The position numbers and the translations under genes were made by a program. Below are positions 8,817-32,394 of a stretch of DNA of 48,896 bases, in pieces. Position 1 is the stretch's first letter. Each line of letters begins with the position of its first letter. The stretch is from Clostridia bacterium (GTDB lineage Bacteria; Bacillota; Clostridia; UBA1212), in the NCBI GenBank assembly GCA_017959965.1, contig JAGCZO010000051.1:1-48896 (forward strand), given 5' to 3'. Below the pieces are notes generated by a model. It searched no databases. It saw only the letters and a list, made by a program, of their open reading frames with translations, and had not been told where the DNA came from.

Positions 8817-9665
8817 TCAGACCTACCCCTTGAAGACAAAGCAGAACCTGCCGCCGGGAGCCGCCTCGCCGTCGGTGTACAGATTCATTATATTTCCTTC
8901 ATTCTCACCAAACAGATTATTGTCGGTCCACTTGTAGCCAAACCGGCCCGGTGTTCCGCCGTTTCCGAGGCCCAGTATTTCTCTTTCCACCCTGATCTGG
9001 ATGATATTCTTCCTGACAACTACGTCGGCGGTGCCCGCGGTCTCCCACTGCCAGCCGCCCGTCGAACGCTCCACAGCGGCCTTCGTGCCATCCGGGCTCT
9101 GCCTGTTGATTACGAATTCGAAGCCCTCCCAGGAGTTTTCACTGTATCCGGTGTCAATGAAAAGCCTCATCCAGCCCTCACCGTCTGCGGGAGTTATTTC
9201 GTCCGCGCATTCCGCGTAGAAGAAGATGTACTTATCGTTATACGCGGTCTTGACCGCGGCAACGTCGTTTCTTGCGGTGCTACTCTTGTATATCTTGTTC
9301 CCGTAGCCCTGGGAACCGTTCTTTTTGCTTCTCTCTATGGTGCTTCCCACGTAGGTCTGCATCCCCTCGATAGCGTTCCACTGGGATATCCTGCCGAAAA
9401 TATCGATGGATAGCTTTGGCGATACCGGAGTTTTGTCCTCCACTCCCTTGAAGCGTCTGATGTTCTCGACAAGCTGGTAGTAATAATAGTCTTTCATCAC
9501 GCCGGAGGAAGGCTCGCAGTCGCGGCTGTACTCGGTGTCGAACTGGTCCACCATGGTATTCTTCAGGGTGGTGTCTCCCGCCCAGGTCTCCATACGCATG
9601 GCCACCCACTCGTTCCAGCCGGTAACGAAAATGAATTCCGGGTCCTGTTTGATGGCAAAATCCCA
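8817..9665 (-). CDS. GH71/99-like lipoprotein, part after the in-frame TAG
   Basis: This is the same reading frame as the preceding piece (9666-10895), continuing directly after a TAG codon. It begins WDFAIKQDPEF and at once gives FVTGWNEW, the conserved acidic block of GH71/99-like (DUF5010-like) hydrolases, so the fold is split by the TAG, not by a domain border. From about 9310 down lies a beta-rich carbohydrate-binding-like (CBM9/DOMON-like) domain with a W/Y/F-rich core. Annotation with the standard code would start at ATG 9605 and stop at TAG 8823-8825. ATG 9605 has no convincing SD and would leave TGWNEW untranslated. After TAG 8823-8825 comes GTC and then TGA (8817-8819). Confidence 0.75.
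8823..8825 (-). other. Terminal TAG followed by one codon and TGA
   Basis: Under the standard code this TAG ends the glycosidase gene. The next codons in frame are GTC and TGA (8817-8819), so reading the TAG as sense adds only two residues before a normal stop. It is the only TAG in the window that could serve as a true terminator. Confidence 0.6.
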
Positions 9666-9668
9666 CTA
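9666..9668 (-). other. In-frame TAG inside the GH71/99-like gene
   Basis: The codons read CAG CAG TAG TGG GAT. The frame is open on both sides (to 10925 above and 8825 below). The residues around it, NFQQ-stop-WDFA, resemble the F-x-x-Q-W run I recall from related proteins, so the TAG falls where a Gln is expected; this alignment is from memory. A single C-to-T change in CAG would also create it. Confidence 0.8.
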
Positions 9669-10895
9669 CTGCTGGAAATTCAGGCCGTAAAATTTGGAGT
9701 TTTCTATGTTTTTATCCGCCACCACGTCCTGACCGCCAAGCTTGTAGGTGTAGCTGTAGCTGCCCTTTGTGTAGCTGCGGCCCATGACGTTGTAGCCGCT
9801 CATAGCCGTTATGACGTTTCTCTTATAGTCCGCGTTCTGGGCAACGCCCACAGTGACCTGCTCCACCTTGCCGTCGGCTTTTTTGTAAACGCACTGAGGA
9901 TATACAGAAAGCCATCCCCAATACGTATTGTCTCTCTCGTCGTGGAAATACGATGCGTCGTTCCTTCTGAAGGTGAAGAACTTGTAGATCTCGTTGTCCA
10001 GCGAGCTTTCTCCGATCTTAAGGGATTCCGGATATGCCATGACAAGGGGTTTGCCTTCCCAATAGAACCAGGCATCCTTATAGAGTCCCTTTTGGTAAAG
10101 CTTCTGGTATATGTCCTGAAGCTGATATCTCGTATCCTCGGTGGGTGCGAAATTCATCATGAACACTATGCCGGGAGCGTTGACGCCCTCTTTTCTGGCG
10201 AGGCTGAAGCCCTCAAACAGTGCCATGTATGATTTTTCCCAGGTGAATCTGCCGTTGGTGTTGTCAAGAATTATGCAGTCGACGCCTGCGTCCGCCAGAA
10301 GCTCCGCCTGCTTTCTTATGACGTATTTGTCGGCGGTCGAATAGTATCCGTAGACCGGCTCATCCCAGAAGTGGTACCCCGTCAGCTTTTTCCAGACCTT
10401 ATGGTCAAAGTCATGCTTAGCGGCTTCCCGCTCTTCATCGGTCTCAAGAGACGCCAATATCTGGGTCACGTTTCTGGCGGAATTCGATTTGGCAAGCTCC
10501 TCGTGCCAGGAGGAATAGAATATTCCAACAAATTTAGTCTGATCCTTTTCGGATGAGACTGTGCCGCTGAGGAGCTTGGAGGTGTACTCCGAACCCGACG
10601 TAGAAAGGACTCTTCCCAGTCCGTCCACAGCCGCATAGCTCTGGGGGAATATACTGTTTACGTCTCTCTCCTTTATCGGATAGGACACCTCTATATCGTA
10701 CGCTTCCTCAGGTGAAAGAGGAGACGGCTCCGGTGTTTCCTCCGCGGGAGCCTCCGTAGGCATTTCGGTCGCACTCATATCGTTTCCTTTCGTGCCGCAG
10801 GCGGATAGAAGCAAAACGGCCGCGAAAACGAGCACAGTCAGAAACAATATCCCGTACCGTCTTCCCGGCGCTTTATTATCGGCTTTGTGACCCAT
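9666..10895 (-). CDS. GH71/99-like secreted lipoprotein, part before the in-frame TAG
   Basis: This is the N-terminal 409 residues of a protein that would be about 692 residues with the TAG codons read. A lipoprotein signal peptide ends at LLLSAC (C33), followed by a Glu/Pro/Thr-rich linker. The catalytic TIM barrel (about 75-409 and onward past the TAG) has the GH71/99-like features GIFYSSWHEE, HFWDEPVYGYY and DCIILDNTNG. It likely hydrolyses an extracellular glycan; the bond is unknown. I prefer ATG 10895 (SD AAAGGA upstream) to ATG 10925, which lies at the predicted transcription start and has no SD; 10925 adds ten residues. It is the first gene of the six-gene minus operon. The barrel lacks its C-terminal strands unless TAG is read through. 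Confidence 0.8.
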   Translation of the reverse strand: MGHKADNKAPGRRYGILFLTVLVFAAVLLLSACGTKGNDMSATEMPTEAPAEETPEPSPLSPEEAYDIEVSYPIKERDVNSIFPQSYAAVDGLGRVLSTSGSEYTSKLLSGTVSSEKDQTKFVGIFYSSWHEELAKSNSARNVTQILASLETDEEREAAKHDFDHKVWKKLTGYHFWDEPVYGYYSTADKYVIRKQAELLADAGVDCIILDNTNGRFTWEKSYMALFEGFSLARKEGVNAPGIVFMMNFAPTEDTRYQLQDIYQKLYQKGLYKDAWFYWEGKPLVMAYPESLKIGESSLDNEIYKFFTFRRNDASYFHDERDNTYWGWLSVYPQCVYKKADGKVEQVTVGVAQNADYKRNVITAMSGYNVMGRSYTKGSYSYTYKLGGQDVVADKNIENSKFYGLNFQQ

Positions 10896-10933
10896 ATTAC
10901 CGGCGATCCTTTCAAAAGTTTTCATTCATATTT

Positions 10934-28179: not shown

Positions 28180-31100
28180 ATGGCTGATACTAAAAACATT
28201 CAGATCTTTACGTGGGAGCCCTTGAACAAGCTGAACGTCATCGACGACGTTTCGTTTTCGAAGGCAATGGATTTTTTCAACAAAGGATATGTTGAAAGTG
28301 TAAAACCGGGCAAGAACGACTCCGGCGAAATCATTATCGAGGCGTATTTCAATGTCAAAGTGTGTTCACCCTTCCCCGAGGGGCTTGAACTTGAGTCCCA
28401 GAACAGATCTTCCAGGCTGACCATTAAGCCTAAGGCCGCCATCGGCACCTGCAGCGCGTGCACCTGCGACGAGCACAGATGCATTCCGCTGACTGCCGCA
28501 TATATCAAGTATCTTTCGGAGAGGAATCTGCTGAATTCCGCGCTGACCGAACGTGAAAGATTCAGATCTGCTCCGGGGTTCAGGAATTCGGTTTTTGAGT
28601 TTCAGTGGACCCCCGCCGGCGAGACCCTGGAGGTGATCCCTCAGCATTACATCGATTCCGCCTTGAAGATGCTTGACAACAGGCTTCTCACCATAAGGCC
28701 CAGACCCAATGATTCGGGATACATCAGCATCGATTTTGACGGAAGGATCTGCCACAAAAAGCAGGAAAACGATCCTCAGTTCACCTTCTCGGATCTCAAT
28801 CTGTTTCTCGAGAGACTTGAAGGTCAGCAGTCGAACATGGAGGACGGCATTGCCATCGGTCCCAAGTTCAATCCCTCCGTTTCCATATGCGAATCGGTCT
28901 GCCCCAACTGCAACTGCGAATTCTGCGTACCGGTGGTGGCCGCGTATATAAAGTATCTCAGGGACACAGGCAACGAGGACGCGGTGAGAAAAGCAGACGC
29001 CGCGAGGCATGAATCCCCCGAAAAGATACGTTACGGCACGAAGATGCCCTTGGCGGAAAACGAGGAGTTATCCAAAAACCTTGTGGAGCAGATCTCCTAC
29101 CTTCCCAAAAACCTTCTGGAAGGCGTTCAGAAACTCCTTGACAGCGGAAAGGCCTCGGTATTTCCGCACAGAAAGACGGAAAACGACGAGGAAGGGATCA
29201 TTGCCGATCTGGCTCTTTGGTACTACACCGACGGAAAAAAGCTTTCCGACGCGAAGACCATTGACGATTTCTTCTGCGACGACGCCGGCGGCGGGATCTT
29301 TGTCTACCACATCAAGACTCTTGAGTTCACGCGCAAGGACATACCCTTCTGGGACAAGGTGCTGAGGGCCACCGTTGCCCTTGATTACCTGAGAAAGTCC
29401 TCCTTCAACACCGAGACTCTCCAGTGGAGGCGCGCAAAGGTGGTCGACAAATTCATGCGCCACACGAAAAAAGTTCCCGGCCTTGAGAAGATCATGCGGC
29501 TTGCCGATAACGATAAGACCAACTCCCTTTTTGCCATCATCGAAGGAAGCAAGGACACAGGCAAAAAGAGGATCGTTGAGATCATCGCGGAGGTCCTTGC
29601 CCAGAGCGGCAAGATCAAAACCAAGGAATATCAGAAGTGCACCTTTGAAGAGCTGGGCCGCACCCTCATAAGAAACTATGAACCCGCCTACCGGGACGAG
29701 ACGAATCCCTACAGCTATCCCGCGGGCGCCTACTACGAGGGGCCGAAATACAATTTCTTCGAGCGTCAGGTTCTTTACGTTCTCACCGGTCTGAACCGCT
29801 TTTTGCGGGACGTTGAGGAGCAGGGACGCACGGACAAGAAGATCGAACACATCCTCCGGGTGCTGGGCCGCGCAGAGAAGGACACCTACGTGATAATCCT
29901 GGGCCTTACCCCGGAAGACGTGGACAGTTTCCTGGCCCTTGAGAACCGCTACAAATTCCTCTACGGCCAGAACAGGATCCACCTTGCCAATATGACCACG
30001 GAGGAGCTCTGCGACTCCTATCTTTCGGAGCTCTCCAAGAACGTCAGGGAGCAGATCACGGACGAGGACGCCTTCAGACAGGAGTTTGCCGAGTTCATGG
30101 CCTTCAACGAAAAGTTCCTGCCCATGGGCAACACCGAGCTGGTGAACTACCTTTCGAACTACAGCAACGTCGAAGGGAAGCCCGTTCTTCCGCCCAACGC
30201 CTACGATAACAGAAAAGCCGCCCTTGCCCTTGAGGAAATGGTTGGCATGAGCGCCATCAAGCAGCAGGTCAGGGACTTTGAGTCCTTCATGGCCTTCCAG
30301 AAAAAAGCCAAGGCCGCGGGTATCAACGTGGAGCACGGAAACCTTCACATGCTCTTTACCGGAAACCCCGGCACCGGCAAGACCACGGTGGCGAGGATCA
30401 TCGCGTCCATGCTTTTTGACATTGGCGTGCTCCCCAACAACAAACTTATCGAGGTCGAGAGGAAGGACCTTGTGGCTTCCTACGTGGGCCAGACCGCCAC
30501 CAAGACAGGCGATGTAATAAAGAAAGCCATGGGCGGCGTGCTTTTCATTGACGAGGCATACTCCCTTGCCCTTGACGACCACGACAGCTTCGGAAAGGAG
30601 GCCATCGCCACTCTCGTAAAAGCCATGGAGGACCACAAGGACAAACTCATCGTCATCCTCGCAGGCTACGAAAAGGAGATGTCGGAGTTCTTAAAATCCA
30701 ACTCGGGAATCGAGTCCAGGATCGGCTACACCTTCAGATTTGAGAACTACACCGTTTCCGAGCTTTCGGAAATGTACATAAGCACCCTGACAAAATACAA
30801 TTTCACTCTTTCTCCCGAGGTGCGCAAGGCCATGGAAGCGGTCACCGAGTTCTTCGTGAACAGGCGCTACTTCGGCAACGGCCGTTTTGTAAAGAAGATG
30901 GCCCAGGAGACTATAATAAGACACGCCAAAAACGAGGGCAAGGAAGGCTGGCAGCTGAACATCATCTCGGAGGACGACGTTCCCTCCGTTGAAGACATGT
31001 CCGCCAAGACCTCCGCCGAGGAATCCCATTCCTCCGGGCTTGAGAACCTCATCGGCCTTGACGATATCAAAGAGCAGATAAGAAAATTCAGAAACACCGT

Positions 31101-31887
31101 CGCCTTCAGAAGAAAAGCCCGTACCTACGGCGTAAGTATTCCCAGGGGCAACAACCACATGCTTTTCTGCGGCAACCCGGGAACCGGAAAGACCACCATC
31201 GCCAGGATCATGGCCCGGGAGCTTTACGACGCAGGCATCGTACCTGAAAACAAGCTGATCGAATGCGGCAGGCAGGACCTTGTGGGAATGTATCTCGGGC
31301 AGACGGCTCCGAAGACTCAGGACATGATCACGAGAGCCCTTGGCGGCGTACTCTTCATAGACGAAGCGTATTCTCTCACCTCCTCCGGAGGCCGGGGCGG
31401 CGACTCCTACGGCGAGGAAGCCGTGACGACGCTGGTAAAGGCAATGGAGGATTACAAGGACAACCTGGTGATCATATTCTCCGGCTACTCGGACAAGATG
31501 GACGAGTTCGTGGCCTCCAACCCCGGCATTGCCTCCAGGATCGGCTTCACCTTCAATTTCAAGGACTATACCGCCCAGGAACTCACCGATATTTTCAAGC
31601 TCAAAGTCAGAAAGACGGGGCTCAATGCCGACGATCCGGAGATGCTGGCAAAAGCCAAGAGCATTATGCAGTATTTCATTTCCGTGCCGAATTTCGGAAA
31701 CGGAAGATTCGCGGAGCGTGTGGTGCAGATGACCTACGAAATACACGCCGAGCGCTGCATGAATATTGACGATCCGGAGGAGCTCACGAAGATCACCTCC
31801 GCGGACATTCCTTCCATCAAATACCTCATCGAGCACATGTCCAACGGCGACGAAATGCTCAACCCCGAGGAGATCGAGGAATCCTAG
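28180..31887 (+). CDS. Multi-AAA+ protein with SWIM-like cysteine modules, part before the in-frame TAG
   Basis: The first 1235 residues of a protein that would be 1404 long with the TAG read. Residues 20-265 hold two related modules, each with an NDSG strand, a tight cysteine cluster (C91 C94 C96 H99 C101; C241 C244 C246 C249) and AAYIKYL: SWIM-like zinc sites. A degenerate AAA-like domain follows (about 400-620, GSKDTGKKR at 456). Two CbbX/SpoVK-type AAA+ domains come next, with GNPGTGKTT at 728 and again at 998; both have GGVLFIDEAYSL Walker B and SRIG arginine-finger regions. An acidic linker then reaches the TAG. SD AGGAG lies 6 nt before ATG 28180. The role is probably ATP-driven unfolding or remodelling for the peptidase domain beyond the TAG. 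Confidence 0.85.
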   Translation: MADTKNIQIFTWEPLNKLNVIDDVSFSKAMDFFNKGYVESVKPGKNDSGEIIIEAYFNVKVCSPFPEGLELESQNRSSRLTIKPKAAIGTCSACTCDEHRCIPLTAAYIKYLSERNLLNSALTERERFRSAPGFRNSVFEFQWTPAGETLEVIPQHYIDSALKMLDNRLLTIRPRPNDSGYISIDFDGRICHKKQENDPQFTFSDLNLFLERLEGQQSNMEDGIAIGPKFNPSVSICESVCPNCNCEFCVPVVAAYIKYLRDTGNEDAVRKADAARHESPEKIRYGTKMPLAENEELSKNLVEQISYLPKNLLEGVQKLLDSGKASVFPHRKTENDEEGIIADLALWYYTDGKKLSDAKTIDDFFCDDAGGGIFVYHIKTLEFTRKDIPFWDKVLRATVALDYLRKSSFNTETLQWRRAKVVDKFMRHTKKVPGLEKIMRLADNDKTNSLFAIIEGSKDTGKKRIVEIIAEVLAQSGKIKTKEYQKCTFEELGRTLIRNYEPAYRDETNPYSYPAGAYYEGPKYNFFERQVLYVLTGLNRFLRDVEEQGRTDKKIEHILRVLGRAEKDTYVIILGLTPEDVDSFLALENRYKFLYGQNRIHLANMTTEELCDSYLSELSKNVREQITDEDAFRQEFAEFMAFNEKFLPMGNTELVNYLSNYSNVEGKPVLPPNAYDNRKAALALEEMVGMSAIKQQVRDFESFMAFQKKAKAAGINVEHGNLHMLFTGNPGTGKTTVARIIASMLFDIGVLPNNKLIEVERKDLVASYVGQTATKTGDVIKKAMGGVLFIDEAYSLALDDHDSFGKEAIATLVKAMEDHKDKLIVILAGYEKEMSEFLKSNSGIESRIGYTFRFENYTVSELSEMYISTLTKYNFTLSPEVRKAMEAVTEFFVNRRYFGNGRFVKKMAQETIIRHAKNEGKEGWQLNIISEDDVPSVEDMSAKTSAEESHSSGLENLIGLDDIKEQIRKFRNTVAFRRKARTYGVSIPRGNNHMLFCGNPGTGKTTIARIMARELYDAGIVPENKLIECGRQDLVGMYLGQTAPKTQDMITRALGGVLFIDEAYSLTSSGGRGGDSYGEEAVTTLVKAMEDYKDNLVIIFSGYSDKMDEFVASNPGIASRIGFTFNFKDYTAQELTDIFKLKVRKTGLNADDPEMLAKAKSIMQYFISVPNFGNGRFAERVVQMTYEIHAERCMNIDDPEELTKITSADIPSIKYLIEHMSNGDEMLNPEEIEES
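31885..31887 (+). other. In-frame TAG between AAA+ and M41 peptidase regions
   Basis: The codons read GAA TCC TAG CAC ACA AGG ACC GCG GTG CAT GAG. The frame continues without a break and gives HTRTAVHELGH two lines on, the zinc site of an M41 peptidase. The TAG falls in a linker before the peptidase helix, so no specific residue is demanded here. Confidence 0.8.
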
Positions 31888-32394
31888 CACACAAGGACCG
31901 CGGTGCATGAGCTTGGCCACGCTGTGGTCTGCAAGATCCTCTTCCCCAATACCCCCATCGAGCGCATCACGATCTCAGCGGAGGGCAACGGCGCTCTCGG
32001 ATACGTGTCCCACAAGGGATACGGCCTTGGGAATAAGACCGCCTCCGACCTCAAGAAGCAGATCTGCGTCAGCATGGCCGGCATAGCGGCGGAGGAGCTG
32101 TTCCTCGGCGAGTACGGCAACGGCGGCACCTCCGATCTCGAAAACGCCACGGAGATCGCCTGGGCAATGATCTCCCGCTACGGCATGTCCTCAACCGGCT
32201 TCACGGTTGTCAAGGAACGTACCGAAAAGAGCAAGCAGGAGATCGACGAGATCCTCAGGAACTGCTTCGAAGACGCAAAGCACATCATTTCCGGAAACGT
32301 CAAGGCTCTCGAAAAGGCAAGAGACGTACTGCTTGCGCAGAAGAGCATCTCAGACGGGGAATTCACGAAAATACTGGAGTCCTCCGGAACCTGA
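31888..32394 (+). CDS. FtsH-like M41 peptidase domain, part after the in-frame TAG
   Basis: 168 codons in the same frame as the AAA+ part, directly after its TAG. HELGH (first His at residue 1243 of the joined protein) is the M41 zinc-binding HExxH. The pieces RITISAEGNGALGYVS, MAGIAAEEL and GGTSDLENATEIAWAMISRYGMS match the conserved order of the FtsH protease domain, including the third-ligand Asp in TSDLENAT. The gene ends at TGA 32392-32394. A separate start is possible at GTG 31903 (AAGGA upstream), but it would begin one residue before HELGH and cut off the first peptidase helix. The natural product is therefore most likely the joined AAA+/peptidase. Confidence 0.8.
   Translation, partial: HTRTAVHELGHAVVCKILFPNTPIERITISAEGNGALGYVSHKGYGLGNKTASDLKKQICVSMAGIAAEELFLGEYGNGGTSDLENATEIAWAMISRYGMSSTGFTVVKERTEKSKQEIDEILRNCFEDAKHIISGNVKALEKARDVLLAQKSISDGEFTKILESSGT

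Follow-up and report, generated by a model that had tools for sequence, protein, structure and literature searches.

An in-frame TAG in a gene joining SpoVK/CbbX-type AAA+ modules to an M41 peptidase in a Clostridia MAG

A GY pair at sensor 1 is a feature defined for the SpoVK/CbbX/EccA clade of AAA+ proteins, and a survey from 2023 found no association of this clade with peptidases (PMC10659427). The clade has been described as one of dedicated chaperones without peptidases, and we found no report of a peptidase association in the open-access literature. Here, we describe a gene in which modules of this clade are joined to a peptidase and whose frame is interrupted by a TAG.

The DNA analysed (the window, 48,896 nt of contig JAGCZO010000051.1) stems from a MAG of a gut bacterium, which comprises 2.45 Mb in 235 contigs with a completeness of 96.6% and a contamination of 8.35%. 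Its congeners include the MAGs Mageeibacillus sp. UBA1243 and Clostridia bacterium RGIG3519, the latter from goat rumen. The census of in-frame stops covered 829 kb of the 2.45 Mb genome, and stops and frameshifts were compared with congeners over 187 kb, about 160 genes. Several contig ends (L049/L231, L090/L214 and L218/L237) overlap at 96–97% identity over 340–413 bp, which suggests a mixture of strains in the MAG and makes polymorphism or a consensus error plausible.

The joined gene and its in-frame TAG

The initial annotation had placed an in-frame TAG between tandem AAA+ domains and an M41 peptidase domain, with the HELGH zinc motif following six codons later, and both observations hold. 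One open frame extends from ATG 28180 to TGA 32394, and the TAG, codon 1236, is the sole stop within it. The features of the locus are as follows.

28180–32394, plus strand: joined SpoVK-type AAA+/M41 gene, ancestrally a single gene; 1404 codons including the TAG, uninterrupted in congeners
30229–30927, plus strand: first AAA+ module, SpoVK/CbbX/EccA clade, residues 684–916; matches to TIGR02881, TIGR02880 and TIGR03922
30997–31809, plus strand: second AAA+ module with lid, SpoVK/CbbX/EccA clade by PDB matches and tree, residues 940–1210
31873–32370, plus strand: peptidase M41 domain interrupted by the TAG, residues 1232–1397; PF01434 and PDB FtsH matches
31885–31887, plus strand: in-frame TAG, codon 1236; CAG (Gln) in four congeners
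31903–31905, plus strand: possible internal start at GTG; four congeners have the Val codons GTC or GTT instead, which are not start codons
31906–31920, plus strand: HELGH zinc motif, residues 1243–1247; H, E, G and H invariant in 17 aligned sequences
32134–32136, plus strand: Asp1319, invariant in 17 aligned sequences

Uninterrupted homologues of the joined protein, which had been proposed as a check, were found in congeners. The four closest share 58–75% identity with it and carry CAG (Gln) at the TAG codon within conserved flanking DNA; a fifth, more distant congener also encodes the protein without interruption and has GAA there. Downstream of the TAG, dN/dS is low and about equal to that upstream, thus the frame was constrained until recently. 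Together with the single frames in the congeners and with GTC or GTT at the candidate start, this argues that the peptidase part does not form a gene of its own and that the lesion probably arose recently. Apart from a paralogous AAA module, no further copy of the lesion region was found in the assembly. The neighbourhood of the joined gene offered no functional hint.

These data bear directly on an arrangement of two genes, in which the AAA+ part would stop at the TAG and the peptidase would restart at GTG 31903. An AAGGA lies 5 bases upstream of this GTG and could serve such a start, but it sits on coding sequence that is largely common to the congeners, and among the homologues found none is split at the TAG position. 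The M41 match (PF01434, E 5e-25) begins at residue 1232, before the TAG residue. A predicted structure with a mean pLDDT of 85.5 places the TAG residue close to where the HExxH-bearing helix begins. A start at GTG 31903 had been expected to cost the domain its first helix; according to the model it would shorten the active-site helix by two turns rather than remove it entirely. Given the GTC and GTT codons in all four congeners, we rejected split AAA+ and peptidase genes as improbable.

Both AAA+ modules fall within the SpoVK/CbbX/EccA clade. TIGR02881 matched across both of them with 467.8 bits, above its cut-off, and the best PDB matches of the second module were EccA1 (3.6e-47) and CbbX (1.4e-45), as compared with 4.8e-8 for FtsH. 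In a phylogenetic tree, both modules and SpoVK split from the AAA+ domains of FtsH with a support of 100/100, and G1102 and Y1103, the GY of sensor 1, are invariant in the 17-sequence alignment. The first arginine finger, four residues after the Asn, is absent and replaced by Ala1118, which is nearly invariant in the family; several SpoVK proteins likewise lack this Arg. The C-terminal part matched FtsH proteases (3kds, 6.5e-17), FtsH chains ranked first in a fold search, and Asp1319 is likely the third zinc ligand by analogy with FtsH. Hydropathy predicted no transmembrane helix, with a 19-residue maximum of 1.2 vs 2.2–3.0 for FtsH. By analogy with FtsH and CbbX, a hexameric motor would likely thread substrates to the M41 sites. 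The N-terminal part (window 28180–30200) contains two repeated Cys-rich motifs followed by AAYIKYL, with several Cys invariant or nearly so, possibly a metal-binding repeat.

Further in-frame stops and the reading of UAG

A second gene in the window had also been reported to carry an in-frame TAG, and this was confirmed.

9666–9668, minus strand: second in-frame TAG, in a hydrolase-like gene with a WNEW motif (8826–10925); Gln in every homologue compared

The end of this hydrolase-like gene (window 8823–8825, minus strand) reads TAG-GTC-TGA, and congener G001 has TGA at the position of that TAG. Altogether, five in-frame TAGs in bacterial genes without a good downstream start were detected in the 829 kb: those at 31885 and 9668, and one each in cdd (contig L041), a membrane protein gene (L094) and ruvX (L225). 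The cdd lesion (L041:1955, minus strand) lies in a deoB-cdd fusion gene, at precisely the codon of the catalytic Glu in its cytidine deaminase part, and intact deoB-cdd fusions exist in congeners G003 and G002. The TAG in ruvX, also called yqgF (L225:672, minus strand), replaces a codon for Tyr or Phe in congeners; ruvX is often essential in other bacteria. In the membrane protein, the residue is variable among congeners (Gln, Glu, Arg or Leu). The residues replaced are therefore Gln (CAG), Gln, a catalytic Glu, Tyr/Phe and a variable one, and the commonest ancestral codons (CAG, GAG and TAC/TAT) are one step from TAG. None of the congeners shares a TAG at any of the five sites, and by eye no readthrough context common to the sequences after the TAGs was seen. 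A survey of ABC domains yielded no further stops among the matches listed. In addition, a phage portal gene (L200:14235, minus strand) contains an in-frame TGA and probably belongs to a decaying prophage.

Based on the two genes of the window, the initial annotation had favoured recoding of UAG, a reading that these results do not support. TAG still ends ordinary genes in the MAG (about 3% of stops), for instance in contigs L093, L084 and L089, with the one in L093 overlapping its neighbour. RF1 and RF2 are both encoded, and RF1 possesses the PxT (PQT) and GGQ motifs with only two private substitutions. The proposed search for a suppressor tRNA detected no CUA tRNA, neither by ARAGORN on 829 kb of contigs nor by searching the entire assembly with two patterns; its absence is not proven, because several tRNA isotypes are missing from the assembly. 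Pyrrolysine coding was rejected, as the best match to pyrrolysyl-tRNA synthetase (PylS) reached 22.8 bits vs a cut-off of 178. Reassignment of UAG throughout the genome to a single amino acid, for example glutamine, would fit the Gln at both TAGs of the window. However, Glu and Tyr occupy conserved sites elsewhere, and a single reassigned residue cannot account for such a mixture. Considering also the terminating TAGs, the presence of RF1, the missing CUA tRNA and the lack of TAG at these sites in congeners, we rejected such a reassignment as extremely improbable.

A probable recent nonsense mutation compared with possible amber suppression

We consider it probable that the TAG at 31885 is an ordinary, recent CAG-to-TAG nonsense mutation and that UAG acts as a stop codon in this organism. 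A single transition would have recently broken a conserved gene for a soluble AAA+ protease with two motors, whether in this lineage itself or in the strain or consensus behind the MAG. With termination at UAG in vivo, which we infer, the main product would be an AAA+ protein of 1235 residues that stops just short of the M41 active-site helix, and the protein in this MAG is probably truncated just ahead of the protease active site. The other four in-frame TAGs would be independent mutations of a like kind; the mixture of replaced residues is as expected of point nonsense mutations in a MAG that is fragmented and mixed from strains.

Several observations count against a nonsense mutation and in favour of a natural, partial suppression of amber codons, through a CUA tRNA missing from the assembly or through near-cognate reading, under which TAGs would persist in working genes while TAG mostly still terminates. 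Each of the five bacterial-gene lesions is a TAG, including the one in ruvX. The 187 kb compared with congeners contained three in-frame stops, all TAG, and neither a frameshift nor any other in-frame stop. TAG ends genes somewhat less often than in congeners, at about half the frequency (16/497 vs 27/431, P 0.03; P 0.08 against G003 alone). The missing tRNAs leave room for a CUA gene, and there is precedent, since one survey found suppressor tRNAs in 0.3% of bacterial genomes (PMC13092985). On the other hand, RF1 is normal, the tRNA searches gave no candidate, and a suppressor that inserts Gln or Tyr would leave the deaminase without its catalytic Glu. Also the bias itself is marginal: given the codon usage, TAG is expected to make up 48–57% of new nonsense codons, so that five of five lesions correspond to P 0.024–0.06, and five of six, with the phage TGA counted, to P 0.09–0.19. 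We take this bias as a weak hint of amber tolerance, not a demonstration, and regard amber suppression as unlikely. Less likely still is an early, reversible amber tolerance, in which a leaky UAG would allow stops to persist in working genes and the gene of the two-motor protease would yield two products, a chaperone without the peptidase and the full protease.

Both readings have precedents in the literature. In-frame stops in bacterial genes are reported to be read through frequently (PMC7918605). Those cases resemble ours in having TAG where relatives have CAG and a frame under purifying selection, but they are shared by two or more species, whereas ours occur in one genome only. Similar false signals of stop reassignment were met by the authors of Codetta, who blamed pseudogenes (PMC8629427). 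The TAG alone is ordinary, and it warns against concluding from two genes of a single MAG that a codon is recoded.

Relation to FtsH and to SpoVK/CbbX/EccA chaperones

The joined protein is more important than the TAG, and its gene family deserves attention for its architecture, a SpoVK/CbbX-type motor with a complete M41 peptidase and without a membrane anchor. At least 16 other MAGs encode intact joined homologues, some with a single motor module, and the full fusion was present in only a few of 291 genomes sampled from the class. The interrupted gene represents a kind of protease that is intact and widespread in related bacteria and apparently undescribed so far. If active, such proteins would provide a direct test of whether the SpoVK/CbbX-type clade also unfolds substrates for degradation. 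With the SpoVK, CbbX and EccA chaperones the joined protein shares the AAA+ sequence, GY at sensor 1, an NPG motif and AAA_lid_6, but it differs from them by its additional C-terminal peptidase. Like FtsH, it has a C-terminal M41 domain with HExxH and Asp and an AAA+ module directly ahead of it; unlike FtsH, it has a motor of the SpoVK/CbbX/EccA clade, usually of two modules, and no transmembrane helix. If active, it would be a soluble equivalent of FtsH that is driven by another motor.
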